Source: Anatilimnocola floriformis
GTDB taxonomy: Bacteria; Planctomycetota; Planctomycetia; Pirellulales; Pirellulaceae
Direction of reading: 5' to 3'
Assembly: GCF_024256385.1 (NCBI RefSeq)
Contig: NZ_JAMLFW010000002.1
Location: forward strand, 2,108,001 to 2,172,000
Length of the DNA: 64,000 nucleotides
Shown: positions 12,128 to 64,000 of the stretch, piece after piece
Layout: the number at the start of each line of letters is the position of its first letter
Numbering within the stretch: position 1 is the stretch's first letter
Program-made: the position numbers and the translations under genes
Notes under the pieces: model-generated
Seen by the model: only the letters and a program-made list of their open reading frames with translations
Database searches by the model: none
Told to the model about the DNA's origin: nothing

Positions 12128-12557
12128 TCCCTGAGTCTATCGGCCTGCGAATATGCCCTGCAACGGACACAAGCCTGACGCGCAAGCGGAGGAATCGCCT
12201 CAATTTCTTCGCTGGCGCGTAAGGTTCATGTGAGCGAAAAGACGGCACTCTACGCCCAATCGTCGTGCATCAGAAACCGCCCCGGAAATCAACGGCGGTT
12301 TACTTTTGCCCGTTCCGCTGCGAAAAACGATCGATTCGGCCGAATTCCGCCGATCTGCCTCGCCTGGAATGCCACTTGCTGTTGCGCGCGCCTGCCGCCG
12401 CGTGACGCCTTGTTCTTGCGGCGACGAAACTGCAATGCGTGCTGCCCACAACGGTCGCAGCGCTTGCACAGCGGCCATTCGTTTTGCCCAAGCCGATCCC
12501 TTTTCCCTGCCGATACATTCGATCCACAGCCCCTCTTGCCGCGAGTGATTTGAACCG
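12128..12557. other. Gene-free divergent promoter region
   Basis: 430 bases between a small membrane protein gene on the minus strand and the large transglutaminase gene on the plus strand. Short frames exist on both strands but look like shadows. I see no strong repeat and no TTGGCA site like those in front of the 56-62 kb cluster. Confidence 0.4.
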
Positions 12558-15500
12558 ATGGCCATCCGCGTTGCTCTGCACCACCGTACTTCGTATCGCT
12601 TCGACCGGCCTGTAACGCTGCTGCCGCACGTCGTTCGCCTGCGGCCGGCGCCGCACTGCCGCACGCCGATTTTGAGCTATTCGCTGAAGGTGCAGCCCGA
12701 GGAGCAATTTCTCAACTGGCAGCAGGATCCTTACAGCAATTACCTGGCGCGGCTCGTCTTTCCCAAGCCGGCCACGGAAGCCGTCTTCGAAGTCGACCTC
12801 GTCGCCGAGATGACGACGCACAACCCGTTCGACTTCTTCATCGACGACAGCGCTCAGCAGTCACCGTTCAAGTACGACGCCATCCTCACCCGCGAATTGC
12901 AGCCCTACCTCGAAGCCGAAGCGCCTGGCCCGCTCCTCAGCCAGTTGATTGCCGAGAGCCGCAAGAGCGCCATCAAGACGATCGATTACCTCGTCGAGCT
13001 CAATCAGAAAATTCAAAGCCGGCTGAAGTATCTGATTCGCCTCGAGCCCGGCATTCAATCGTGCGAAGAAACGCTCACGCTCGGCTCGGGCAGCTGCCGC
13101 GATTACTCGTGGCTGCTCGTGAACTTGCTGCGGCATCTCGGTTTGGCCGCGCGGTTTGTCTCGGGCTACCTGATTCAATTGACTGCCGATGTGAAGTCGC
13201 TCGACGGCCCGAGCGGCACCGAGGTCGATTTCACCGACTTGCACGCTTGGACCGAAGTCTTCATTCCCGGCGCGGGCTGGATCGGCCTCGATTCGACGAG
13301 CGGTCTTCTCGCCGGCGAAGGTCACTTGCCGCTCGCCTGCGCCGCCGATCCGACTTCGGCAGCGCCGATCACCGGAAGTTGGCAGAAGCTGGAAGGGGAC
13401 ACCGGCGATGTCAAAGTCGAGCAGGAATTCAAGTTTGAAATGAAGGTCACGCGGATCCACGAAGATCCGCGCGTGACCAAGCCTTACACCGACCGCCAGT
13501 GGAACTCGATCGAAACGCTCGGCGCACAGATCGACGATGAACTGCGGGCCGGCGATTGCCGACTGACGATGGGTGGCGAACCAACGTTTGTGGCCATCGA
13601 CAATCGCGATGCCGACGAATGGAACACGGCGGCGCTCGGGCCGCACAAGCGCAAGCTCGCCGGTGTGTTGTTTCGCAAAATGCGCGATCACTTCGCGCCG
13701 CAAGGTTTGCTCCACTTCAGCCAAGGAAAGTGGTATCCCGGCGAATCGTTGCCGCGCTGGGCGTTCAGCTGTTATTGGCGCAAAGACGGTCAGCCGCTGT
13801 GGCGCGATCCGGCGCTCGTCGCCGCGGATCATGGTGAGTACAAGTTCACCGATCGCGATGCGCAGAAATTTACGCAGGTTCTCGCGCGGCGATTGGGCGT
13901 CGAAGCCGGCCACGAAATTCCCGGTTACGAAGACGTTTGGTATTACATGTGGCGTGAGCGGCGGCTGCCGACGAATGTCGACCCGCTGCAGAACAATCTC
14001 GCCGATAAAGAAGAGCGGGCCCGCCTCGCCAAGATTTTTGACCACGGCTTGGAAAAGGTCATCGGCTATGCATTGCCGGTGCAGCGGATTCACACTCGCG
14101 AAGGTTCGTACTGGGTCAGCGGCAGTTGGTTCCTCCGCCGCGAACACATGTTTCTGATCCCCGGCGATTCGCCGATGGGTTTCCGTTTGCCGCTCGATAG
14201 CATTCCTTGGGTCGCCCCCGGCGACATGTTCAAGCCGGAAGAGATCGATCCCACCGCGCCGCTGCCGCCGTTGCCGTCTGCCGTCGACGGCAATTATTGG
14301 TCGCCGCAGTCGGGCGATTTGTTGGCCCGCTACAACCCGCCCTATCCGAATCAGGGTTACCCCAATCAATCGCCGCGCTCGATTTGGGAACAGAACTTCG
14401 GTCCTGGTGCTGGCCCTGGCAATGGTTCGGCCAATGGCCGAGGAAATCCCAACGATCGCCGCGGCGAAACGCTCGTGCGTTTTCAAACGCAGGGCGACAA
14501 TCGTCCAGAGCCCGGCAAGTCGGCGGCGGGCATTGTGCGGACCGCGCTATGTGTCGAATCTCGCAACGGCACGATGTTTGTCTTCATGCCGCCGCTCGGT
14601 TTGCTCGAGGATTATCTCGATCTCGTCGCTGCCATCGAAGCGACCGCGAATGAGTTGAACATCCCAGTCCAGCTCGAAGGCTATGGCCCGCCGCACGATT
14701 CGCGGCTGCAGAATTTCTCGGTCACGCCCGACCCGGGTGTCATCGAAGTCAACATTCATCCCGCGACGAACTGGGAAGAACTCGCCGCAAACACCGAGGC
14801 GCTCTATCAGCTGGCCCATGAGTCGCGACTGTCGGCTGAGAAGTTCATGCTCGACGGCAAGCACACCGGCACCGGCGGCGGCAATCACATTGTCATCGGT
14901 GGTCCGACGCCGACCGAAAGCCCGATTCTGCAGCGGCCTGATTTGCTCCGCAGCCTGGTTTCGTACTGGCACAACCATCCGTCGCTGTCGTACTTGTTCT
15001 CAGGCTTATTCCTCGGCCCGACGAGTCAGGCGCCGCGCGTCGATGAAGCCCGCAATGATTCGCTCTACGAGCTCGAAATCGCGTTTCAAGAACTGCGGCT
15101 CGAAGGCAATGTGAAGCCTTGGCTTGTCGATCGTGTTTTCCGTCACTTGCTGACCGATCTAACGGGCAATACGCACCGCGCCGAGTTCTGCATCGACAAG
15201 TTGTATTCGCCGGATGGCTATGCTGGTCGCCGCGGCTTGCTTGAAATGCGAGCCTTCGAAATGCCGCCGCACTGGCAGATGAGCCTGGTGCAACAATTGT
15301 TGTTGCGTTCGCTCATCGCTCGCTTCTGGCATGAACCCTATCGCGCCAAGCTCGTCCGCTGGGGCACCGAACTGCACGATCGTTTCGCACTGCCGCACTT
15401 CATTCAACATGATTTGCAGGATGTGCTGTACGAACTTCGGCAGGCCGGTTTCCCGCTGCAAGAAGCCTGGTTTGCGCCGCACTTGGAATTCCGCTTCCCG

Positions 15501-16211
15501 TTACTCGGCGAAATCTCGCAGCGCAACGTGAAGCTCGAATTGCGGCAAGCCATCGAACCGTGGCACGTCCTCGGCGAAGAAAGCTCGAGCAGCGGCACGG
15601 CCCGGTATGTCGACTCGTCGGTCGAACGACTGCAAGTGAAAGTCACCGGCCTGACCGACTCGCGACACGTCATCGCGTGCAATGGCCGCCGTGTTCCGCT
15701 CCATCCGACGGGCGTGAATGGCGAGTTTGTTGCCGGCGTTCGTTATCGCGCCTGGCAACCACCATCGTGCTTACATCCGACCATCGGCAGCCACGCGCCA
15801 CTGGTGTTCGACCTGCTCGATACCTGGCTGAACCGTTCCATCGGCGGCTGCACTTATCACGTCGCTCACCCGGGCGGCATGAGTTACGACACCTTCCCCG
15901 TCAACGCCAACGCAGCCGAGGGGCGGCGACATAGTCGCTTCCTGGCGATGGGGCACACTCCTGGGAGCGGCTTTGTAATGCCAACCGAAGAACGTATTCC
16001 CGAAGCCCCCCTGACGCTCGATCTGCGTACCACGCCGACGATGCAACAGGACCTGATCGCTCCCGACCTGCAAAACGGCGCGGCGCGCTACCTCGGCAAC
16101 GGCTCGGTTGCCAACGCCAATCTGCAACCGGGAATGGAACGCAAGATGTCGCCATCCGGGCCATTCCGTAGTCGTCTATCGGCAGCCTTTGAAGGTGAAC
16201 GTTACGACTGA
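12558..16211 (+). CDS. Transglutaminase-like protein with DUF2126 C-terminal region
   Basis: 1217 residues, close to the family's usual 1100-1150. Order: bacterial transglutaminase N-terminal domain (1-110), transglutaminase core (about 150-260) with Cys180 in GSGSCRDYSW, His229 in DLHAWTEVF and Asp245 in WIGLDSTSG, then the DUF2126 region (about 320 to the end), with a Pro/Gly/Asn-rich insert near 580-660. The core fold could act as a protease or an amide-forming enzyme; the substrate is unknown. No signal peptide. Relatives usually sit beside circularly permuted ATP-grasp and alpha-E genes; here those are about 40 kb downstream at 56-62 kb. Probably transcribed alone. Confidence 0.93.
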   Translation: MAIRVALHHRTSYRFDRPVTLLPHVVRLRPAPHCRTPILSYSLKVQPEEQFLNWQQDPYSNYLARLVFPKPATEAVFEVDLVAEMTTHNPFDFFIDDSAQQSPFKYDAILTRELQPYLEAEAPGPLLSQLIAESRKSAIKTIDYLVELNQKIQSRLKYLIRLEPGIQSCEETLTLGSGSCRDYSWLLVNLLRHLGLAARFVSGYLIQLTADVKSLDGPSGTEVDFTDLHAWTEVFIPGAGWIGLDSTSGLLAGEGHLPLACAADPTSAAPITGSWQKLEGDTGDVKVEQEFKFEMKVTRIHEDPRVTKPYTDRQWNSIETLGAQIDDELRAGDCRLTMGGEPTFVAIDNRDADEWNTAALGPHKRKLAGVLFRKMRDHFAPQGLLHFSQGKWYPGESLPRWAFSCYWRKDGQPLWRDPALVAADHGEYKFTDRDAQKFTQVLARRLGVEAGHEIPGYEDVWYYMWRERRLPTNVDPLQNNLADKEERARLAKIFDHGLEKVIGYALPVQRIHTREGSYWVSGSWFLRREHMFLIPGDSPMGFRLPLDSIPWVAPGDMFKPEEIDPTAPLPPLPSAVDGNYWSPQSGDLLARYNPPYPNQGYPNQSPRSIWEQNFGPGAGPGNGSANGRGNPNDRRGETLVRFQTQGDNRPEPGKSAAGIVRTALCVESRNGTMFVFMPPLGLLEDYLDLVAAIEATANELNIPVQLEGYGPPHDSRLQNFSVTPDPGVIEVNIHPATNWEELAANTEALYQLAHESRLSAEKFMLDGKHTGTGGGNHIVIGGPTPTESPILQRPDLLRSLVSYWHNHPSLSYLFSGLFLGPTSQAPRVDEARNDSLYELEIAFQELRLEGNVKPWLVDRVFRHLLTDLTGNTHRAEFCIDKLYSPDGYAGRRGLLEMRAFEMPPHWQMSLVQQLLLRSLIARFWHEPYRAKLVRWGTELHDRFALPHFIQHDLQDVLYELRQAGFPLQEAWFAPHLEFRFPLLGEISQRNVKLELRQAIEPWHVLGEESSSSGTARYVDSSVERLQVKVTGLTDSRHVIACNGRRVPLHPTGVNGEFVAGVRYRAWQPPSCLHPTIGSHAPLVFDLLDTWLNRSIGGCTYHVAHPGGMSYDTFPVNANAAEGRRHSRFLAMGHTPGSGFVMPTEERIPEAPLTLDLRTTPTMQQDLIAPDLQNGAARYLGNGSVANANLQPGMERKMSPSGPFRSRLSAAFEGERYD

Positions 16212-53306: not shown

Positions 53307-53743
53307 GTGTATAATATCCTGCGTCGTTGAGCGGGAGAGGTTGCGCGCTGGCGGCAGGGAATGAATGTTGTTGGTCGGTGGCGAAACTGTTGTACGAGCG
53401 ATTTGGAAGTGTTGTGAGCAATACAGCCAAGAATAAGGGTTTGCGTCCGAACAGCTTCCGGCAATCTGTTGCTCCGCAAGAGCTTCGGTTGTCGGCCTGG
53501 TGCGCAAGAGATTGAGAATGAGTTGTTGTGAAAGTGTTGTATAAAAACTGCGATACTGAAGCCTGTTTTGTGCGTAATTGTCGATCAGTATTAGGGTTGA
53601 GACAGATTCAAATTGTGCCAACAACTGTTGTGAAGGTGGTAGCCGATGGCTGTTAAGGGAAAGCCTATGCGGCCGGGAGCCGAGTTTGGCGAATGACTAG
53701 CGTAACGCTTACAATCGGTGGGAACTAGTTTGGAGGATTGCCG
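53307..53743. other. Divergent promoter region with repeated AA[CG]TGTTGT boxes
   Basis: 437 bases between the beta-lactamase-like gene and the DUF1549 gene. AACTGTTGT occurs at 53385-53393 and 53623-53631, AAGTGTTGT at 53407-53415 and 53532-53540. GC is lower than in the surroundings. No gene is supported. A Shine-Dalgarno TGGAGGA at 53731-53737 precedes the DUF1549 start. Confidence 0.5.
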
Positions 53744-55327
53744 ATGCTCTCCCATTTGCTGCTCTCTCGTGTTTCAGGCTTGGTGGCGCTGTTTATTGTC
53801 GCGGCGTGCGTTGCGGTCCGGGCGGACGAAAGTGAACGAGCCGACCGTGAGCAGGCCCGTGCCGAAATAGTTCGCAAGGTCGATGAGCGAATCGATGCCG
53901 CCCTCGTGCGCGCAAAGATCGTCGCGGCGGAACAGGCCGAAGATGCGGAGTTTGTGCGGCGGGCTTATCTCGATCTGACGGGCTCGGTGCCGCGAGTGGC
54001 CGATGCTCGGAAGTTTCTTGCCGATCAACGGGCCGACAAGCGAGCGCGGTTGATCGAGGATTTGCTCACATCGCCTGCGCATGCCAATCATCTGGCCAAT
54101 TTGTGGCGGTCGATCATGCTGCCGGGCGGCGTGAATGTGGAGCAGATCAACAGCGTGGTGGGGGTGCAAAATTGGCTGCGGCAGCGGTTTGTCGAGAATC
54201 TGCGGTATGACAATCTGGTGTCGGAGTTGCTGGTGGCCACGGCGGGGGATGATGCGGGGCCGGCGCTGTATTACACATCGCTCGAACTCGCGCCGGAGAA
54301 ACTGGCATCGAGCACGGCGCGGATTTTTCTCGGCTTGCAGATTGAATGTGCCGAGTGCCACGACCATCCGTTTGATAAATGGAAGCAGCGTGACTTTTGG
54401 GGTTATGCTTCGTTCTTTGCCCAGTTGCAACGGCCCGACGCCAATGCGCCGGGGATGCAGGCGCGACTGGTCGATATCGATCGAGGCGATGTAAAGATTC
54501 CGAATTCGGAAGAGATCGTGTTGCCGAAGTTTCCCAGTGGTGGCGCGCCGGGCGCCGAAGAGCTTGGCACGCGGCGGATGAAGCTCGCGGTGTGGATGGC
54601 CTCGCGCGATAATCCATATCTGGCGCGGGCGGCAGTGAATCGGGCCTGGTCGGTGCTGTTTGGTCGCGGCCTGGTTGAGCCCGTCGACGACATTGGCCCG
54701 CACAACGCGGCATCGCATCCGGAGTTGTTCGACGAGCTGACGCAGTACTTTATCGAGAGTGGTTTTGATCTGCGCGAGCTGTTTCGCACGATCGCCATGA
54801 CGCAGGCGTATCAGCGGACGAGTCGCTGGACTTCCGCGCCGCCACCGGTGGAGTTGTATGCACAAATGCCGGTGAAGGCGCTCAGCGCCGAGCAGTTGTA
54901 TGACTCGCTCAATCGGGTTTTGGCTCGTCGCGGCGCGGGGCAGATGCCGGGTTTGAATGTGCGCAGTTCGCTGCTCGATCCGCAGCGGCAGCAATTTCTC
55001 ATCAAGATGCAAGGGCAAGGGCGATCGCCGCTCGATTACCAAGCCGGTGTGCTGCAGGCGCTCACGCTTTTGAATGGCGCTGATCTGACGGAGGCAACGA
55101 CGGCGGAGCGCGGGCCGTTGTTGCTCGCGCTCGATTCGCCGCTGTTTGCCGAAGGGGATCGGTTGGAAACGATGTTTCTGGCGACGCTCACGCGCACGCC
55201 ATCGTCGCCGGAGCGGGAGTTGTTTTTGAAGCACGTCAACAGCCGTTCGCCGAGTGAAAAAGGAAAGGCTTGGAGTGATGTGTTGTGGGCGTTGCTCAAC
55301 ACGGCGGAGTTTGCGACGAATCACTGA
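53744..55327 (+). CDS. DUF1549/DUF1553 domain protein
   Basis: 527 residues from the ATG at 53744 (TGGAGGA six bases upstream; the TTG at 53738 is less likely). Signal peptide VSGLVALFIVAACVAVRA. DUF1549 covers about 45-240 with the hallmark ECAECHDHPFDKWKQRDFWG, DUF1553 about 280-510 (AVWMASRDNPYLARAAVNRAWSVLFGRGLVEPVDDIGPHN). These proteins are hallmarks of planctomycetes and have unknown biochemistry. Larger relatives carry a cytochrome-type N-terminal domain that is missing here, and the DUF1501 gene that often follows is not present. Confidence 0.92.
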   Translation: MLSHLLLSRVSGLVALFIVAACVAVRADESERADREQARAEIVRKVDERIDAALVRAKIVAAEQAEDAEFVRRAYLDLTGSVPRVADARKFLADQRADKRARLIEDLLTSPAHANHLANLWRSIMLPGGVNVEQINSVVGVQNWLRQRFVENLRYDNLVSELLVATAGDDAGPALYYTSLELAPEKLASSTARIFLGLQIECAECHDHPFDKWKQRDFWGYASFFAQLQRPDANAPGMQARLVDIDRGDVKIPNSEEIVLPKFPSGGAPGAEELGTRRMKLAVWMASRDNPYLARAAVNRAWSVLFGRGLVEPVDDIGPHNAASHPELFDELTQYFIESGFDLRELFRTIAMTQAYQRTSRWTSAPPPVELYAQMPVKALSAEQLYDSLNRVLARRGAGQMPGLNVRSSLLDPQRQQFLIKMQGQGRSPLDYQAGVLQALTLLNGADLTEATTAERGPLLLALDSPLFAEGDRLETMFLATLTRTPSSPERELFLKHVNSRSPSEKGKAWSDVLWALLNTAEFATNH

Positions 55328-55472
55328 GTTGTCGAAGTGAGTTCGCCCGATGGTTGGAGCCGCCACGTATTGCCAGAATGGCCCTTGGGCTGCGGTTAGA
55401 ATGGCCGGCTTCGGTTGCGGCTCAGCACTGGCTGGGCCAGTGGCACACACAGGAAAAATTGAAAAGCTCTCC

Positions 55473-56126
55473 ATGGCTCGTATTCTCATTACCTCTGGTC
55501 CCACGCGGCAGTATCTCGATCCTGTGCGTTATCTCACCAATGGCAGTAGCGGCCGGATGGGGAAGGCGCTGGCGCAGGCGGCGCTCGATCTGGGGCATGA
55601 AGTTGTCGTGATTAGTGGGCCGGTGAATGTGGATTATCCGGCTGGTGCGCGAGTCGTTCCGATTATTTCGACGGAAGATCTTTTGAAAGCATCGCGTGAC
55701 GAGTTCGCGCGGTGCGATGGTGTGATCGGGGCGGCAGCGCCGTGCGACTATCGGCCGATGCAGGTGGAGGAGCACAAGATTGCCAAGAACGGCCAACCGT
55801 TGTTGTTGCAGTTGGTCGAAACGCCGGACGTGATTGCCACGCTCGGCAGCGAGAAGCGGCGGAATCAGTGGGTGGTTGGTTTTGCGCTCGAGACCGATGA
55901 TGCGCGGTTCAAGGCGATTACGAAGCTCGAGAAAAAGCACTGCGACTTGATTGTGCTCAACGGCCCGACGGCGATGGATGCGGGTGACAACGAAGTGGAG
56001 ATGCTCAATCACGCGGGAGAAGTGGTGCTCGCGGCGAATGGTTCGAAGGACGAAGTTGCGAAACGGATTTTGCAAGTGATTCAGGCGCAACTAATCGACG
56101 TTTTTTCGGCGGCGGTGTCCGAATAG
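55473..56126 (+). CDS. coaB: Phosphopantothenate--cysteine ligase (CoaB domain only)
   Basis: 217 residues from the ATG at 55473 (MARILITSGPTRQYLDPVRY); upstream in-frame sequence is noncoding in character. It joins cysteine to 4'-phosphopantothenate in coenzyme A synthesis. TNGSSGRMGKALAQAALDLGHEV and AAAPCDYRPM are the substrate and nucleotide-binding parts, and KKHCDLIVLNGP the end of the domain. In most bacteria this domain is fused to CoaC, about 400 residues in all; here the decarboxylase part is missing and must be elsewhere. Confidence 0.87.
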   Translation: MARILITSGPTRQYLDPVRYLTNGSSGRMGKALAQAALDLGHEVVVISGPVNVDYPAGARVVPIISTEDLLKASRDEFARCDGVIGAAAPCDYRPMQVEEHKIAKNGQPLLLQLVETPDVIATLGSEKRRNQWVVGFALETDDARFKAITKLEKKHCDLIVLNGPTAMDAGDNEVEMLNHAGEVVLAANGSKDEVAKRILQVIQAQLIDVFSAAVSE

Positions 56127-56485
56127 TTGGCAACTTGAGACGGTCTTGTCTCTGGGGCAAATTTGCATTCCTCATTGGCAAACTCTGCCGATGAGGACGG
56201 ATAGCGATTGGCAGAATGAGGCTCGGCGGAACCTTGTTCGCAGGTTGTTGCTGCGACTACGCAGGCTGCATATTCGCAGTAGCGGTCCCGCCCCAGATTT
56301 GCTATTTCACGCCAATCGCCACTGCATAACCCTGCTCGCGCTTGTCAGTTGGCATAACAGTTGCCAAATTGGGGAAACCTGTGCTTTGCGACCTTGCGCC
56401 CACCTATTCTGCCAATGACTTTGTCGTTGGCTGCTCAAAAGTTGGGCAGTTCATTCACAGCACGCGTCCCAGCGGAGGGTCAGTG
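56127..56485. promoter_or_regulatory. Leader of the ATP-grasp cluster with six TTGGCA/TGCCAA sites
   Basis: TTGGCA at 56127-56132, 56175-56180, 56208-56213 and 56349-56354; TGCCAA at 56362-56367 and 56410-56415. The fourth and fifth form TTGGCA-N7-TGCCAA. ATTGGCAGAAT at 56207-56217 is the exact reverse complement of 56406-56416. About 0.2 such sites are expected by chance. They could be sites of a dimeric regulator. Confidence 0.5.
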
Positions 56486-57988
56486 ATGGATTTTAGTGCG
56501 TATCAGACGGACGAATTCTACGACGAGATGTTCGAGGCCCCTGGTCGGCCTCGGGAGCGGAGCCAACATCTGGTTAGTCGGCTCCAATCTCTTTCGGCCG
56601 GCGAACTGCAGCGCCGCCAAAAATCGGCTGAGCTCGCACTCCTCAACATGGGGATTACGTTCAACGTCTACGGCCACGAAGCCGGGACCGAAAAAGTGTG
56701 GCCGTTCGACCTAGTTCCGCGCATCATCGAGGGTGGCGAATGGGACATGATCGAGCGGGGGCTGAAGCAGCGCATCACCGCGCTGAATATGTTCATCGAC
56801 GACGTGTATAACGCGCAGTATTGCGTGCGCGACAAAGCCGTTCCCGAATGGCTGATTGCCTCGGCGAAAAATCTGCTAGGTCCGTGTCGCGGCATGACAC
56901 CGCCGAAGGGAATTTGGTGCCACATCACCGGCACCGATCTCGTTCGCGATACGAACGGCCAGATGTATGTGCTGGAGGATAATCTCCGCTGCCCATCGGG
57001 CGTGTCGTACGTGCTCGAAAACCGCGAGATCATGAAGCGGACTTTTCCGCAGGGCTTTGACGGCTTCAGCGTGCTGCCGGTCGAAGACTATCCCGATCGT
57101 TTGCTCGATATGCTGCAGCACATCGCGCCGCAGGGCGTGACCGATCCGAATGTAGTGGTGCTCACGCCCGGCATTTACAACAGCGCTTATTTCGAACATT
57201 GTTTCCTCGCGCAGCGGATGGGCGTCGAACTCGTGCAGGGTTCCGACCTATGCGTGCTGAACGGCCATGTGTGGATGCGCACGACGAAGGGGCTGGAACG
57301 CGTCGACGTGATTTATCGCCGCATCGACGATGAGTTCCTCGATCCGAAAACCTTTCGGGCCGATTCGACGCTCGGTGTGCCCGGTTTGATGGATGTCTAT
57401 CGCGCAGGACGCGTTGCTCTGGCGAATGCGCCGGGCACGGGTGTGGCCGATGACAAAGCGGTTTACGCTTTTGTTCCCGACATCATCAAGTTCTATTTGG
57501 GCGAAGATGTGATTCTGCCCAACGTGCCGACGTTTGTCTGCGGTGAAGACAAACAGTGCGAACACGTGCTGATGAACATGGAAAAGCTGGTCATCAAGCC
57601 AGCCAATGAATCGGGCGGTTACGGCATCTTGCTCGGACCGCGAGCGAGCAAAGCCGAGATCGATAAGTATCGCGATGTGATTCGCGCCAACCCGCGCAAT
57701 TACGTCGCTCAGCCGATGCTCGGCCTGTCGCGCGTGCCGACGATTGTCGAGGATCATTTCGAGGGTCGACATGTCGACCTGCGGCCGTATATTCTCTACG
57801 GCAAGGATATTTTCGTCCTTCCCGGTGGCCTGACGCGGGTGGCCTTGCGAAAGAATTCGCTAGTGGTCAACTCTTCGCAAGGTGGCGGCAGCAAGGATAC
57901 TTGGGTGCTGCGAAACGGCTACAACGGTGGACGGTTCCAAACACAAAAGCAAACCTTGAGCGGCCAGTCGCAGTATCAAACGAGCTAA
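56486..57988 (+). CDS. Circularly permuted ATP-grasp protein
   Basis: 500 residues from the ATG at 56486 with AGCGGAGGG upstream. CP_ATPgrasp family (formerly DUF404/DUF407): [43 protein letters not shown] at the N-terminus, [31 protein letters not shown], then [20 protein letters not shown] and [15 protein letters not shown], with [26 protein letters not shown] near the end. ATP-grasp enzymes join a carboxylate to an amine using ATP; the substrate here is unknown. First gene of a plus-strand cluster. Confidence 0.93.
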
Positions 57989-57994
57989 GCAGTA

Positions 57995-58084
57995 AGGCAA
58001 TTGCAGATTTCAGATTGCAGATTAAAAATGCGGGTTGAGGATTCTTGCCTTCAATCTGCAATCAAAAATCTGCCATCGGCAATT
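57995..58084. repeat. Inverted-repeat element between cluster genes, family I
   Basis: GGCAATTGCAGATTTCAGAT followed by TGCAGATT pairs with AATCTGCAATCAAAAATCTG followed by CCATCGGCAATT. It fills the gap between the ATP-grasp gene and the alpha-E gene, so the message could fold into a long hairpin there. Confidence 0.65.
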
Positions 58085-58098
58085 CCCAGGCGGGGGAC

Positions 58099-59073
58099 AT
58101 GTTAAGTCGAGTCGCAGATTCCATCTTTTGGATGAGCCGTTGCATCGAACGGGCGCAGAACGTTGCGCGGTTCATCAATGTCAATCTCAAGCTCTCGATC
58201 GAGCTCGGCGCAGCCACGCACAACCAGTGGTCGCCGCTGATCTACACGACCGGCGATCAAGAACGCTTCGAAGAGCTCTACGGCGAGTACAACCAGCGGA
58301 ACGTCATCGACTTTCTTGCCTTCGATTCGAACAACGGCAACTCGATTATCTCGTGCCTCCGCGCCGCTCGCGAAAACGCCCGCACGGTCCGCGAAATGAT
58401 CTCGTCGATGATGTGGGAAGAGCTCAACAAGTTCTTCCTCAGCGTGCGGGCCGCAGCCAACGACCAGACGATCCTCGAAAGCCCCTACGAGTTCTTCAAT
58501 CAGATCATTCTGGCCAGCCATCTGGTCGAAGGGATCACCGACGGCACGATGTCGCACGGCGAGCCGTGGCACTTCGCGCATCTCGGCCGTATGCTCGAAC
58601 GGGCCGATAAGACCTCGCGCATTCTCGATGTGAAGTACTTCATCCTGCTCCCCAACGTTGGCGATGTGGGGACCAACATCGACACGATTCAGTGGGGCGC
58701 GTTGTTGGAATCGGCCAGCGCCTTGGAAATGTATCGTAAGCGGCATGGGCGGATTTCGCCCGAAGATGTCGCCGAGTTTTTGATTCTCGATCGGGAATTT
58801 CCCCGCGCGATGCATCACTGCCTGATCGAAGCCGAAAAGTCGCTGAATGCCATCTTCGGCCGGCGCGACGACCGCATCTACAACTCTGCCGAACAACGGC
58901 TGGGGCGGTTGCGGGCGGATGTGAACTATTCGCAGATCCGCGAAATTATCGACGGCGGGCTGCACGAGTTCATCGACGACTTCCAGGTCAAGTTGAACGC
59001 CGTCGGCGCCGCGATTCACGAGACGTTTTTCGCGGAACCACCGGCATCTTCGTTAGAGATGTCGACTCAATGA
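58099..59073 (+). CDS. Alpha-E domain protein (DUF403)
   Basis: 324 residues from the ATG at 58099 (GGGGGA upstream). The all-helical alpha-E domain (PF04168) begins MLSRVADSIFWMSRCIERAQNVARFINVN and contains RENARTVREMISSMMWEELNKFFL and GEPWHFAHLGRMLERADKTSRILDVKYF. In the family the domain accompanies circularly permuted ATP-grasp enzymes and transglutaminases and may assist them; its chemistry is unknown. Confidence 0.93.
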   Translation: MLSRVADSIFWMSRCIERAQNVARFINVNLKLSIELGAATHNQWSPLIYTTGDQERFEELYGEYNQRNVIDFLAFDSNNGNSIISCLRAARENARTVREMISSMMWEELNKFFLSVRAAANDQTILESPYEFFNQIILASHLVEGITDGTMSHGEPWHFAHLGRMLERADKTSRILDVKYFILLPNVGDVGTNIDTIQWGALLESASALEMYRKRHGRISPEDVAEFLILDREFPRAMHHCLIEAEKSLNAIFGRRDDRIYNSAEQRLGRLRADVNYSQIREIIDGGLHEFIDDFQVKLNAVGAAIHETFFAEPPASSLEMSTQ

Positions 59074-59198
59074 CCATAGATTCTGGTCGGTTGCCGGCTC
59101 GGTAGCAATCTGCTCTTGTCCGGCGTTCGCTATCACCCTTATGCTGGCAGTCACGTAAGTCGGTCGCTGTTCCCGCCAACATCTCTTTCCAGAAAACT

Positions 59199-61757
59199 AT
59201 GTCGCCGGGTGCGGTAACCAGCGAAGCTCACGTGCAGCGAGATCTGCTCCAGGGGTACGTTCCCTACCAGCAGGTTCACGATGAGCTGTTGGGAGCCGAT
59301 GGCACGCTCCGCGGGCAGTGGCAAAAGTTCGTTCCCGCCCTCGCCCAACTCGGCAGCCCCGAAATCGCCCGCCGCTGGGAAGCCTCGCGCAAGCTGATCC
59401 GCGAAAACGGCGTGACGTATAACGTTCACGGCGATCCCGCCGGCCTGGCCCGACCGTGGGAACTCGACGCGGTTCCGCTCCTGCTGCCAACCTCGGAATG
59501 GAACACCATTTCCGAAGGTCTCGTGCAGCGAGCGACATTGCTGAACATGGTGCTGGCCGATCTGTATGGTCCGCAGCGGTTGCTGAGCGAAGGGCTGCTG
59601 CCGCCGGAATTGGTATTTGCCCATCCGGGCTTCCTGCGGTCCTGCAAAGATCTGCCAGTTCCTCGCAATCGCTACTTGTATCTTTCCGCAGCCCACTTGG
59701 CTCGCGACCGCAGCGGCCAATGGTTGGTGATTGCTGATCGCACGCGTGGGCCGACTGGCGCTGGTTATGCGCTCGAAAATCGCCTGGTGATGTCGCGGAT
59801 GATGCCCGACGTCTTTCGCGATTGCCAGGTGGAACGTCTTGCGCGATTTTTCGCTACGCTGCGCGAAACATTGCAGACGAGCGGCCGAGTTCACGATCAG
59901 CCGCGGATCGTGTTGCTCAGCCCGGGCCCGACGAGCCCCACTTATTTCGAAGACGCCTACCTGTCGCGCTACTTGGGTTTCACGCTGGTCGAAGGTGGCG
60001 ATCTGACGGTCCGCGAGAACAACGTTTATCTCAAAACGCTCGGCGGGCTGATGCGGGTCGATGTGATCCTCCGCCGCGTTCGCGACGAGCTGTGCGATCC
60101 GCTGGAACTCCACGGCGACTCGCTGCAAGGCGTGCCAGGTTTGACGCACGCAGCCCGCAGTGGCACCGTGTTGCTGGCCAATGCTCTCGGCTGCAGCGTG
60201 GTCGAATCGGCCGCCCTCGTGCCGTTCATGCCGACGCTGGCGCACTTCTTTTTGCGCGAGGAGCTGAAGCTCAACTCCGTTCGCACTTGGTGGTGCGGCG
60301 ACGGCGAGTCGCTGCAGTACGTCATCGAAAATTTTGACAAGCTGGTGGTCAAACCGAGCTTTCCCTCTGCGCGACACACTGCCATTTCAGGTGGCCAGCT
60401 TCCGAAATCGCAGCGCGAAGAGTGGATCGCGAAAATCAAACACCGGCCGCAGAATTACGTCGCTCAAGAACTCGTGACCGGTTCATCGGCCCCGATGTGG
60501 GCCGGCGGTACGCTGCGGGCCTGCCATGTCGCGGTCCGCACGTTTGCGGTGGCGACTGGCGATACCTATGAAGTGATGCCTGGCGGCCTGGCCCGCGTCT
60601 CAACCTCCTCCGACCCACTCGCCGAATCGGCGCTCGGCGGCCAAGGGAGCAAGGATGTGTGGGTTCTGGGCGACGGCCCGGTGGCGAATGTTTCGCTGCT
60701 CCATCCCGCCGGCACGATGATCTCGCTGCAACGCAGCGGCAACGATCTTCCCAGCCGCGTCGCCGATCACTTGTTCTGGCTCGGCCGGCACGTCGAACGG
60801 CTCGAAGGAATCGCCCGTGTGCTGCGGACGACCCTCACCCGGCTCACCAGCGAAGCCTCTTTCGCTGGTTCGCAGAGTATGGGCCCGCTGCTGAAGATGC
60901 TTGCCGAATTGATGGCCTTCCCCGCACCGCTCCGGCCGTCGCTCACCGCGCCGGCGATGGCGGCGCTCGAAGCCGAACTCAGTCGTTGGATTTCCGATCC
61001 CACGCGCAACAGCCTGGCCAGCATGGTGAGTGCGATGCGCGGCGCTGCGACCGTCGTGCGCGATCGCTTGTCGCTCGACAGCTGGCGGATTTTGAATCGC
61101 CTCGGCCAAGAGCTGGTAAATCAGGGGAAAGAGCCGTCGCCGTCGCTGACCGATTCGCTGCCGATGCTCAATCGCTTGATCCTCGATCTGGCGGCGTTCA
61201 GCGGTATGGGCACCGAAAGCATGACCCGCGGTCCGGGTTGGCGTTTTCTCGATTTGGGCCGCCGTCTCGAACGAGCGCTGCAAGCGATGACCGTGATCAA
61301 GGTCGCGCTCGTCGAACCCCCTGCCGATGAAGATTCACTGCTCGAGGCGCTGCTGGAAATTGGCGATAGCTCGATGACCTATCGCAACCGCTACCTGACG
61401 ATGCTGCAGCTGCCACCGATTCTCGACTTGCTACTGACCGACGAAACGAACCCGCGCTCGGTCGGCTTTCAAGTCGCCGCGCTCCTCGGTCACGTCGATG
61501 CCCTGCCGCATTCCAATCGGCAACTCCTCCGCAGCACCGAGCAACGGCTGATTCTCGATACCTGCACGCAACTTCGCCTCGCCGATGTCTATGCCCTGTC
61601 GCATCTCGATCGTCAGGGCCGACGTTCATCGCTGGAGCGGTTCCTGCTGCGACATAGCGAGCAACTGCGGCAACTGTCGGATGAGATCAGTCGGAATTAT
61701 TTGATTCATGCTGGTCCGGCGCGGCAGCTCAACGAGATTCGTCCCTCCTCCACGTAG
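59199..61757 (+). CDS. Fused circularly permuted ATP-grasp / alpha-E protein
   Basis: 852 residues. The N-terminal part (about 1-480) repeats the ATP-grasp plan of the gene at 56486 (ENGVTYNVHGDPAGLARPWELDAVPLLLPTSEWNTISEGLVQRATLLN, then KLVVKPSFPSARHTAIS and NYVAQELVTGSSAPMW). The remainder (about 520-840) is an alpha-E domain (NDLPSRVADHLFWLGRHVERLEGIARVLR, GPGWRFLDLGRRLERALQAM). This is a second, single-chain version of the two preceding proteins. It ends 14 bases before the transglutaminase gene. Confidence 0.93.
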   Translation: MSPGAVTSEAHVQRDLLQGYVPYQQVHDELLGADGTLRGQWQKFVPALAQLGSPEIARRWEASRKLIRENGVTYNVHGDPAGLARPWELDAVPLLLPTSEWNTISEGLVQRATLLNMVLADLYGPQRLLSEGLLPPELVFAHPGFLRSCKDLPVPRNRYLYLSAAHLARDRSGQWLVIADRTRGPTGAGYALENRLVMSRMMPDVFRDCQVERLARFFATLRETLQTSGRVHDQPRIVLLSPGPTSPTYFEDAYLSRYLGFTLVEGGDLTVRENNVYLKTLGGLMRVDVILRRVRDELCDPLELHGDSLQGVPGLTHAARSGTVLLANALGCSVVESAALVPFMPTLAHFFLREELKLNSVRTWWCGDGESLQYVIENFDKLVVKPSFPSARHTAISGGQLPKSQREEWIAKIKHRPQNYVAQELVTGSSAPMWAGGTLRACHVAVRTFAVATGDTYEVMPGGLARVSTSSDPLAESALGGQGSKDVWVLGDGPVANVSLLHPAGTMISLQRSGNDLPSRVADHLFWLGRHVERLEGIARVLRTTLTRLTSEASFAGSQSMGPLLKMLAELMAFPAPLRPSLTAPAMAALEAELSRWISDPTRNSLASMVSAMRGAATVVRDRLSLDSWRILNRLGQELVNQGKEPSPSLTDSLPMLNRLILDLAAFSGMGTESMTRGPGWRFLDLGRRLERALQAMTVIKVALVEPPADEDSLLEALLEIGDSSMTYRNRYLTMLQLPPILDLLLTDETNPRSVGFQVAALLGHVDALPHSNRQLLRSTEQRLILDTCTQLRLADVYALSHLDRQGRRSSLERFLLRHSEQLRQLSDEISRNYLIHAGPARQLNEIRPSST

Positions 61758-61771
61758 ATTGAAGGTGACTC

Positions 61772-62650
61772 ATGAAATACAAAGTCACGCATACCACGAT
61801 CTACGATTATTCCGACGCGGTTCCAGTCTGTCACAACGAGATCCGCCTCTGGCCTCGCGATCATCGCCGGCAGGTTTGCCTGCAGCATCGCTTGCGGGTT
61901 CGTCCGGAACCGGCTCACACCGATCATCGCACCGACTACTTTGGCAATCACGCGGGGCAGTTCGCCATCGAGCAGCCGCACAACCGCTTGACGGTCACCG
62001 CCGTCAGCCAGGTGCAAGTCACGCCGCCGGAAGTACCCGCGCCGAGCAGCACGCCGCCCTGGGAAGACATCCGCGACCGCTTTGCCATCGGTCAGCCACC
62101 CTGGTGGCTTGAGGCGCGGCAGTTTGTGCTCGACTCGCCTTACGTGCAAGCAAGTTCCGCCCTCCGCGCGCTCGCCGAACCCTCGTTCACGCCGGGCCGG
62201 CCTTGGCTCGAAGCGGTGCTTGATCTGACGCGACGGATTTATACGGAGTTCAAGTACGATCCGGCGGCGACGAACGTGAACACCGCTCTTGAGACCGTGC
62301 TGCGAATTCGCCGCGGCGTGTGTCAGGATTTCGCCCATCTGCAAATCGGCTGCTTGCGTTCGCTAGGATTGCCGGCGCGGTATGTGAGCGGTTACTTGCT
62401 CACGCAACCGCCACCAGGACAGCCGCGACTGGTTGGCGCCGATGCCTCGCATGCCTGGGTTGCGGCGTTTTGTCCCGAGGCGGGCTGGATCGATTTCGAT
62501 CCTACGAACAACGTCATCCCCGGCGTCGGCCATGTGACGCTCGCCTGGGGACGCGACTACGGCGACGTCTGCCCGATTAAGGGCGTGGTTGTCGGCGGCG
62601 GCCAACACCGCATGCGCGTGGCGGTCGATGTCGCGCCGATGCTAGATTGA
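61772..62650 (+). CDS. Transglutaminase-like cysteine protease/ligase
   Basis: 292 residues. N-terminal beta-rich domain (YKVTHTTIYDYSDAVPVCHNEIRLWPRDHRRQ), then the transglutaminase core with Cys184 in RRGVCQDFAHL, His227 in ASHAWVAAF and Asp243 in WIDFDPTNNVIP, followed by HVTLAWGRDYGDVCPIKGVVVGG. The pattern matches the short partner of the ATP-grasp/alpha-E system. No signal peptide. It probably cuts or forms amide bonds on a peptide handled by the neighbours; the target is unknown. Confidence 0.94.
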   Translation: MKYKVTHTTIYDYSDAVPVCHNEIRLWPRDHRRQVCLQHRLRVRPEPAHTDHRTDYFGNHAGQFAIEQPHNRLTVTAVSQVQVTPPEVPAPSSTPPWEDIRDRFAIGQPPWWLEARQFVLDSPYVQASSALRALAEPSFTPGRPWLEAVLDLTRRIYTEFKYDPAATNVNTALETVLRIRRGVCQDFAHLQIGCLRSLGLPARYVSGYLLTQPPPGQPRLVGADASHAWVAAFCPEAGWIDFDPTNNVIPGVGHVTLAWGRDYGDVCPIKGVVVGGGQHRMRVAVDVAPMLD

Positions 62651-62994: not shown

Positions 62995-64000
62995 CTACTT
63001 CTTAAACATCGCATCCCGCGGGTTGCCGCGCGAGAGCAAGTAAGCGAGCAGGTCGAGCACTTCGTTTTCGTTTAGCTGCTTCAACAAATCCTTCGGCATG
63101 AGCGAGACCGACGAGGGTTTACTTTCCTCGATGTCGCTCTTCTTGATCGTTTGGATCTTCGCTGCGTTCTCGGGATCGATCACCATCGTGATGCTCTCGG
63201 GCAGATCGGTGATGACGCGGCCCGTGAACGTCTTGCCGTCGGTGGTGGCCACGACGGTCGCTTTGTACTGATCCGAAATCACCTTGCTCGGTTCGATGAT
63301 CGAATCGGTGAGATCCTTCAAGCTGAAGCGGCCGGCGAGTTGCGTCAGATCGGGGCCGGTAGCGCCGCCGTCTCCGCCGTAGCGATGACAGACGACGCAC
63401 CGCGCCGCCGCAAACATCTTCTGGCCGTTCTTGAAGTCGCGGCCCGTTAGTTTGCCATCGGCAAGCGCGACGACATCGGCAGCCGTGTAATCCTTGCCTG
63501 GGCCTTTCGCCTTCGGCAGCTCGGGTGCGACGTAAGGCTTGCGAAGGCCGAGGGCTTCGACGGCGAGACGTTCGGAATCGGTGGAGTTGCTGAAGGCGTC
63601 GTTCTCGATATTCGTGAGAAACTTCTGGTAGCTATTGCCGCCACTCTTCTTCCGGGCCGTTTCAAACCAGCGGAAGTAGTTCAAACGCTGATCGACGGTC
63701 CAGCCGGTCTTCAGATTTCGCAGCGTAAACGCATAGTGATACTGCTGCTGATCGACCTGATTGGCGAGGACCGAAGCCACCGTGCCGCCGTAACCGCGGT
63801 TGCGGGCCAGCAGTTCTTCCGAAACGGCAGTCGCCGAGTCGTGCTCCTTCGTCAATTCCGGCACGATCTTGGTGGCGGCTTGAGGCGAGCTCAAACCGAC
63901 CATCAGGATGGCCAGTTCGCGATCGTGAGGATTCGAATTGGTGGGAAAAAGCGAATCGAATTTGGAGCCGAGCTTCACGCGCTCCGGGTCGGCAGGCAAG
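62995..64000 (-). CDS. PVC-type cytochrome c domain protein, C-terminal part (cut by window edge)
   Basis: The visible 334 residues run to the window end without a start. The cytochrome part is at the end: GQKMFAAARCVVCHRYGGDGGATGPDLTQLAGRFSLKDLTDSIIEPSKVISDQY, with the heme attachment CVVCH and an SLMPKDLLKQLNENEVLDLLAYLLSRGN tail. The N-terminal part seen here is HEAT-like and helical. Such proteins usually have a long PQQ-type or beta-propeller region upstream; it would lie beyond the window. Confidence 0.9.
   Translation of the reverse strand, partial: LPADPERVKLGSKFDSLFPTNSNPHDRELAILMVGLSSPQAATKIVPELTKEHDSATAVSEELLARNRGYGGTVASVLANQVDQQQYHYAFTLRNLKTGWTVDQRLNYFRWFETARKKSGGNSYQKFLTNIENDAFSNSTDSERLAVEALGLRKPYVAPELPKAKGPGKDYTAADVVALADGKLTGRDFKNGQKMFAAARCVVCHRYGGDGGATGPDLTQLAGRFSLKDLTDSIIEPSKVISDQYKATVVATTDGKTFTGRVITDLPESITMVIDPENAAKIQTIKKSDIEESKPSSVSLMPKDLLKQLNENEVLDLLAYLLSRGNPRDAMFKK

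Follow-up and report, generated by a model that had tools for sequence, protein, structure and literature searches.

Four consecutive genes of the planctomycete Anatilimnocola floriformis, at positions 56486 to 62650 of the 64,000 nucleotides analysed here (the window; contig NZ_JAMLFW010000002.1, positions 2,108,001 to 2,172,000), are a planctomycete copy of a known predicted ATP-grasp/Alpha-E/transglutaminase system, in its DUF2126 form without Anbu, and not a new system. One of the two ATP-grasp proteins of the cluster has its presumed metal- and ATP-binding residues intact; the other, fused to an alpha-E domain, looks from its sequence like an old, conserved pseudo-ligase whose alpha-E domain is intact. 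Together with a DUF2126 protein encoded elsewhere in the window, the four genes would make up a five-gene amide or peptide ligase system linked to nitrogen limitation, a reading to which we give an even chance. New here are the counting of intact against degenerate ATP-grasps across phyla and the enrichment of sigma-54-like sites upstream of the stand-alone ATP-grasp and DUF2126 genes.

The genes and the predicted system

The four consecutive plus-strand genes were proposed, with their domains, by a first-pass annotation made from the letters alone, and open reading frames and Pfam confirm them. The DUF2126 protein noted there at 12558 is likewise real and carries transglutaminase domains of its own (Pfam). 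The genes are designated as follows:

S, 56486..57988, plus strand: stand-alone, circularly permuted ATP-grasp, presumed ligase; 500 residues; CP_ATPgrasp_2, 551 bits
E, 58099..59073, plus strand: alpha-E helical protein; 324 residues; Alpha-E, 340 bits; Glu-Arg (ER) motifs E17-R18 and E167-R168
F, 59199..61757, plus strand: fusion of a degenerate, probably non-catalytic ATP-grasp (Pfam match 93-468; CP_ATPgrasp_2, 483 bits) with alpha-E (517-835; Alpha-E, 239 bits); 852 residues
T, 61772..62650, plus strand: transglutaminase-like cysteine enzyme with the triad C184/H227/D243; 292 residues; Bact_transglu_N, 92 bits; Transglut_core, 73 bits
D, 12558..16211, plus strand: N-terminal transglutaminase domain and DUF2126, a predicted glutamine-synthetase-like amidoligase; 1336 bits

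The gaps S-E, E-F and F-T measure 110, 125 and 14 bases. The triad of T, described as intact from the letters, recurs in relatives: among 107 T proteins linked to F, Cys184 and His227 are each conserved in 106 and Asp243 in 103 (T rows of at least 500 residues and D rows of at most 1000 were left out of the alignments). In the organism's own genome only E and F match alpha-E at an E-value of at most 0.001. A proteasome-family search of this genome gave nothing over the cut-off and two chance-level matches (E-values 0.5-0.8), and a search for Anbu, in the cluster or elsewhere in the genome, did not find it. Searched against NCBIfam, the five proteins gave no match at an E-value of at most 0.001.

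The cluster belongs to the predicted system by its PF14403 ATP-grasps, the adjoining Alpha-E with ER motifs, the transglutaminase with its triad and the transglutaminase-DUF2126 fusion. That system is said to bring together circularly permuted ATP-grasp, Alpha-E, transglutaminase, Ntn-hydrolase and DUF2126 families. The Pfam texts for PF14403 and PF04168 reportedly distinguish active from inactive ATP-grasps and describe the inactive ones as joined in many cases to Alpha-E; they also mention a fusion of transglutaminase and COOH-NH2 ligase. Iyer et al. 2009 predicted the system to serve peptide synthesis or modification, as cited in passages of PMC5666114, PMC6376114 and PMC3597751. The window holds the same families and differs from that system in the order S-E-F-T, in the DUF2126 gene 43 kb off and in the absence of Anbu from the genome; it is a further member with an unusual local order. 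With the Anbu operon (ATP-grasp, Alpha-E, transglutaminase, Anbu) the genome shares the S-E pair and a transglutaminase, whereas Anbu is missing and the D-F-T genes are present instead. For the Anbu operon of Yersinia, the part of PMC6376114 available describes phosphate release from ATP by the ATP-grasp and calls the published hypotheses on the operon unconfirmed; an excerpt of PMC8665760 states that no function of Anbu is known.

The gap between S and E (57989-58098) also holds a 27-base inverted repeat (58000-58026 and 58050-58076, 85% complementary; RNA fold z -2.8), whose core AGATTGCAGATT has no other copy in the window with one mismatch allowed. The repeat could belong to a dispersed family or form a hairpin that serves RNA processing.

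An intact and a degenerate ATP-grasp

The alignment of the ATP-grasps comprises 81 S and 123 F proteins. The latter are 45 from a phylum sample, window included, and 78 from a scan of named genomes, and the two sets of loci may have species in common. S rows shorter than 400 residues were left out, and four proteins that are F by length and really S in long frames (L060, L064, L081, L155) were counted as S. In the numbering of the window S, the residues D151, E164, N166 and K371 are kept in 81/81 S homologues; N462, present in the window S, is kept in 80, the remaining one having a gap. S has the presumed metal- and ATP-binding residues of a catalytic ATP-grasp ligase. The equivalents of E164, N166, D431 and N462 are kept in none of the 123 F homologues. 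The window F has His166, Ala179 and Arg181 at the places of Asp151, Glu164 and Asn166, and the Asn166 position is Arg in 117/123 F. S has a glycine-rich loop that the F rows do not conserve. The nearest solved structure to S is 3n6x (E-value 2.1e-162), in which D151, E164 and N166 are identical; F does not have the presumed metal- and ATP-binding residues of S and 3n6x.

F is therefore probably a pseudo-ligase, as far as residues can tell. Other positions of its ATP-grasp are well kept, R433 and D471 in 123/123 and K470 in 107/123, and since R433, D471 and the new Arg are so conserved, F appears constrained and not decaying. In a quick tree of 80 identity-thinned rows (42/123 F, 38/81 S), the F rows make up one clade with a Shimodaira-Hasegawa-like approximate likelihood ratio test (SH-aLRT) value of 100.

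It had been suggested in the first-pass annotation that two similar ATP-grasp/alpha-E sets act in sequence or as a hetero-pair. Two active sets working sequentially are rejected, because the presumed Glu and Asn metal ligands are missing in 123/123 F. A hetero-pair of S and F is possible, as a presumed active enzyme with a pseudoenzyme.

Two further findings on ATP-grasp frames deserve mention. In genome G041 the S gene of an Anbu-type cluster has one in-frame TAG. The genome of A. floriformis has a third CP_ATPgrasp_2 match at 4269841-4270080, weak at 26 bits and short of the cut-off; the 534-residue frame that contains it may encode a distant relative of the ATP-grasps.

The alpha-E domain and the DUF2126 protein

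The ER motifs are kept in alpha-E of both kinds, in 70-71 of 71 E proteins (limited to 290-400 residues) and in 113-121 of 121 F (of the 123, those with alpha-E parts of at most 250 residues were dropped). The AlphaFold model of E has a mean predicted local distance difference test score (pLDDT) of 87. Compared with PDB folds it gave no match at an E-value of at most 0.001 (best 0.55), with a weak resemblance to the CHAD domain (E-value 1.8), and the best hit of a sequence search for a solved alpha-E relative had an E-value of 0.057.

Over 93 aligned sequences of the DUF2126 protein, conservation reaches 97% or more in 263 columns. The AlphaFold model of D (window residues 288-1174) has a mean pLDDT of 80, and the 50 PDB matches listed, of 336 with an E-value of at most 10, are all glutamine synthetase, GmaS, other glutamine synthetase homologues or YbdK. 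A glutamine-synthetase-like fold of DUF2126 is thus suggested by the model, through a weak match; the DUF2126 protein differs from glutamine synthetase and the YbdK amidoligases in having additional domains.

Co-occurrence in genomes

The Planctomycetota sample comprises 244 genomes searched with PF14403, of which 68 matched at an E-value of at most 0.001 and 61 over the cut-off. Set aside were G094, where no weak piece passes the cut-off by itself but their sum does, and seven genomes under the cut-off; counted in were G097 (S as contig-end fragments only), G072 (where F is split in two) and G024 (whose frame of 449 residues is divergent). With the rows read by hand, S occurs in 60 of the 244 genomes and F also in 45 of these 60. 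DUF2126 is found in 46 genomes; 12 genomes have Anbu, with one further match that is weak. S is present in all F-bearing (45/45), all DUF2126-bearing (46/46) and all Anbu-bearing (12/12) genomes. Among the 60 genomes with S, F and DUF2126 occur together in 43, F alone in 2 and DUF2126 alone in 3 (Fisher p 2.6e-8). Anbu is found in 4/45 genomes with F vs 8/15 without (p 7e-4), an avoidance.

The view that the genes belong to a conserved set, which a DUF2126 transglutaminase may complete, is borne out by these counts: DUF2126 is present in 43/45 F-bearing Planctomycetota genomes, and D lies directly upstream of F in 36 of the 44 F-bearing loci of the phylum sample, contig ends included. Judged from record titles, the system is found in several bacterial phyla. 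Outside the phylum, where genomes of 40 of the 80 scan loci were searched, 39/39 F-bearing genomes have at least one PF14403 match beyond F itself. This extra match frequently sits on a different contig, and in G257 it is fragmentary; the result favours S and F being functionally linked. Clustering of 534 neighbouring open reading frames recovered Anbu as a recurring partner; the other clusters among the 22 largest listed contain only genes of close relatives, abundant planctomycete families or spurious-looking frames.

Gene order in relatives

Contig ends and flanks truncate the loci counted here, and more than one locus can come from a single genome. In the 78 loci of the phylum sample the commonest orders are S-E-D-F-T (16) and D-F-T (11), and S-E-Anbu-T occurs in 6; of the 80 loci of the named-genome scan, 35 have D-F-T alone and 7 S-E-D-F-T. 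The window's family is represented by 60 genomes, 36 of them with a match. Judged from S-F distance and strand, three of these 36, namely the window, its congener G283 and G334, have the short spacing expected of S-E-F, 13 a spacing of about 6 kb that fits S-E-D-F-T, and 20 another or an unlinked layout. Loci read directly have S-E-F-T in G283 and G334 and D-F-T-S-E in G327. The expectation of conservation in relatives is confirmed at the level of the gene set and of the order S-E-D-F-T but fails for the exact order S-E-F-T, with 3/36 by spacing. In G283, a one-contig genome, D lies about 80 kb from the cluster on the other strand. The separate D of the window is thus a trait of the genus and no assembly fault, because the one-contig congener also has D apart.

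Sigma-54-like elements

Homologues of these genes have been connected with nitrogen supply. In the portions of the reports available, I35_5080-83 of Burkholderia cenocepacia are NtrC/sigma-54-dependent (PMC5491218), PP_2685 and PP_2688 of Pseudomonas putida are higher on nitrate vs ammonium (PMC8050072), and induction of Anbu under nitrogen limitation is cited (PMC5666114, PMC6376114). The planctomycete genes share the domain families of the Burkholderia and Pseudomonas genes, whose expression is, in those portions, nitrogen-dependent, whereas the evidence for the planctomycete ones consists of sequence elements. Because of this literature we scanned 400 bases upstream of a start proxy for sigma-54-like sites, with cuts at 9/12 and 10/12. 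Two such elements, of the -24/-12 type, stand before S and D in the window:

56350..56365, plus strand: sigma-54-like -24/-12 element upstream of S; TGGCATAACAGTTGCC, 9/12 match
12365..12380, plus strand: sigma-54-like -24/-12 element upstream of D; TGGAATGCCACTTGCT, 10/12 match

The S element lies within a 50-base block identical in congener G283, where the surrounding DNA has diverged; at the aligned place before D the congener has CGGAATG-GGAA-TTGCT (9/12), with one half-site change and an altered spacer.

In the start-anchored count, heads with fewer than 150 bases upstream or no start proxy were dropped; the control genes come from Planctomycetota loci, with the first in-frame Met as start. 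At the 9/12 cut, a site is found at 29/52 S heads and 10/21 D heads of Planctomycetota vs 39/437 control genes. Four other spacings give 2-9/52 for S and 0-6/21 for D, and the reverse strand 4/52 and 0/21. Counted by genus, a site is found in 18/40 genera for S and in 6/16 for D. Outside the phylum it is found at 13/19 S heads (other spacings 0-3, reverse strand 3). The 10/12 cut leaves 17/52 S and 9/21 D heads in Planctomycetota, 5/19 S and 5/37 D heads outside, and 10/437 controls. An earlier count at 10/12, with last base A only and mononucleotide shuffles, had given 13/78 Planctomycetota, 3/32 Pseudomonadota and 3/22 other heads. A second one, with last base A or T, dinucleotide shuffles and control genes, gave 38, 24 and 5 of 73 Planctomycetota heads at 9, 10 and 11 of 12 vs 54, 11 and 2 of 434 controls.

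RpoN is encoded in the own genome and in 60/60 relatives; its presence is useless as a discriminating test, since all 60 have it. A scan for consensus sigma-70 promoters and terminators gave 3 promoter-like sites vs 2.1 expected and 4 terminator-like sites vs 7.8 expected, and so carried no information. One P-II gene of the own genome has a 10/12 sigma-54-like site 16 bases before its presumed start.

Discussion

Gene content, residue states, co-occurrence, gene order and the enrichment of sigma-54-like sites are direct observations, and the five-gene proposal stated at the outset would account for them as follows. S, with E, would activate a carboxylate by ATP and then form an amide bond. D would be a second ATP-dependent amidoligase, of the glutamine synthetase type, with a transglutaminase-like cysteine domain of its own. 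F would keep the ATP-grasp fold with its metal/ATP site lost and act as a non-catalytic partner that offers its alpha-E domain, perhaps with bound peptide, to D and/or S. T would hydrolyse or transfer the amide product, and expression would rise in nitrogen limitation; by analogy to the homologues, the window genes may be switched on when nitrogen is scarce. What we infer in this scheme is that S and D are active and F is not, which proteins bind each other, how the steps follow one another and that the genes of A. floriformis are tied to nitrogen limitation.

Several points weigh against it. D151, E164 and N166 are presumed to be metal ligands by analogy with glutathionylspermidine synthetase, and in a profile search for structures of that enzyme, from which the ligands could be transferred, 3n6x alone was significant. 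F still has Asp151 in 98/123 and Lys371 in 73/123, and loss of conserved residues is no proof of inactivity. The fold match of D is weak, with a best E-value of 1.8e-3, none at or below 0.001, and low global template modelling (TM) scores. The co-occurrence statistics ignore kinship, and in the family genome G329 (86% complete; one of the other or unlinked layouts) F was seen and S was not. The scan relied on an assumed sigma-54 consensus. At the looser cut the neighbouring spacing N3 also gives 9/52 S and 6/21 D heads, and D heads outside the phylum show, with 12/37, a modest excess over other spacings (3-6) and the reverse strand (5). The P-II genes of the class, taken as positive control, are near background with 7/40 at 9/12 and 3/40 at 10/12, and many of them may not be first in an operon; because this control is barely enriched, a sigma-54 nitrogen regulon is not established in these bacteria. 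A literature search found no biochemistry on F, D, E or T, and the published work found names neither substrate nor product of the system. In the part of PMC6376114 available, no specific interaction of Yersinia Anbu with other operon proteins was detected.

Other explanations bear on the enzymes and their partnership. That F is still an enzyme, with Glu to Ala, Gly or Ser and Asn to Arg adapting the site to a different phosphoryl or nucleotidyl reaction, or to nucleotide binding without the usual metals, is in our view quite unlikely: its pocket is evidently under selection, in the retained R433, D471, K470, D151 and K371 as in the new Arg, but two of the presumed metal ligands are missing along with Asn462 in 123/123, and the glycine-rich loop is not conserved. 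S-E(-Anbu/T) and D-F-T could also be two independent ligase systems with different products, merely frequent neighbours. The 35/80 scan loci with D-F-T and no S-E within flanks and contig ends would fit this, as would S-E with Anbu and no F in 8/12 Anbu genomes; the invariable presence of S beside F and DUF2126 in the 244-genome sample and the extra PF14403 match in 39/39 searched scan genomes, often on another contig, make it unlikely. A doubtful possibility is that Anbu and D-F-T stand in for each other downstream of S-E and act on one product, which would be cleaved by the Ntn-hydrolase or else extended or modified by D. The avoidance of F and Anbu speaks for such a division; yet four genomes carry both, the avoidance statistic ignores kinship, and the available part of the Yersinia study detected neither peptidase nor amidase activity of Anbu (PMC6376114).

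The element upstream of S could be the dyad operator of a dimeric regulator and not a sigma-54 promoter. By eye, the S site of the window, TTGGCA-TAACAGT-TGCCAA, is an inverted repeat, in a block identical in the congener, and for this reason a repressor operator has to be reckoned with, a further point against the nitrogen-linked proposal. However, the D site of the window and many sites of relatives are asymmetric, ending in TTGC(A/T), and at the 10/12 cut the sigma-54 spacing is found at 17/52 S heads, with four other spacings yielding 0-2 and the reverse strand none, so that an operator does not seem likely.

Returning to the five-gene proposal, it is tempting to speculate further that F is a dedicated pseudo-ligase subunit of single origin, present in several phyla, that links D with S and E, that sigma-54 puts the system under nitrogen-limitation control, also in Planctomycetota, and that a nitrogen-storage or nitrogen-salvage peptide results; in this full form the idea is clearly improbable. 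An intact S, a uniformly degenerate F, a DUF2126 protein paired with F and operon heads with sigma-54-like sites give a clear order of experiments, in which nitrogen limitation is the candidate condition, S and D are the presumed ligases and F is the presumed adaptor.

Neighbouring genes

Directly upstream of S, 55350-56126 encodes a CoaB-like (DFP C-terminal) domain with no CoaC half, and the CoaBC model score is below the cut-off. It is preceded at 53738-55327 by a planctomycete PSCyt2/PSD1 (DUF1549/DUF1553) protein whose PSD1 match ends after position 121 of the 244-position model. Beyond T, a c-type cytochrome with a TIGR02603 heme-binding domain lies on the minus strand at the window end (62995-63999).

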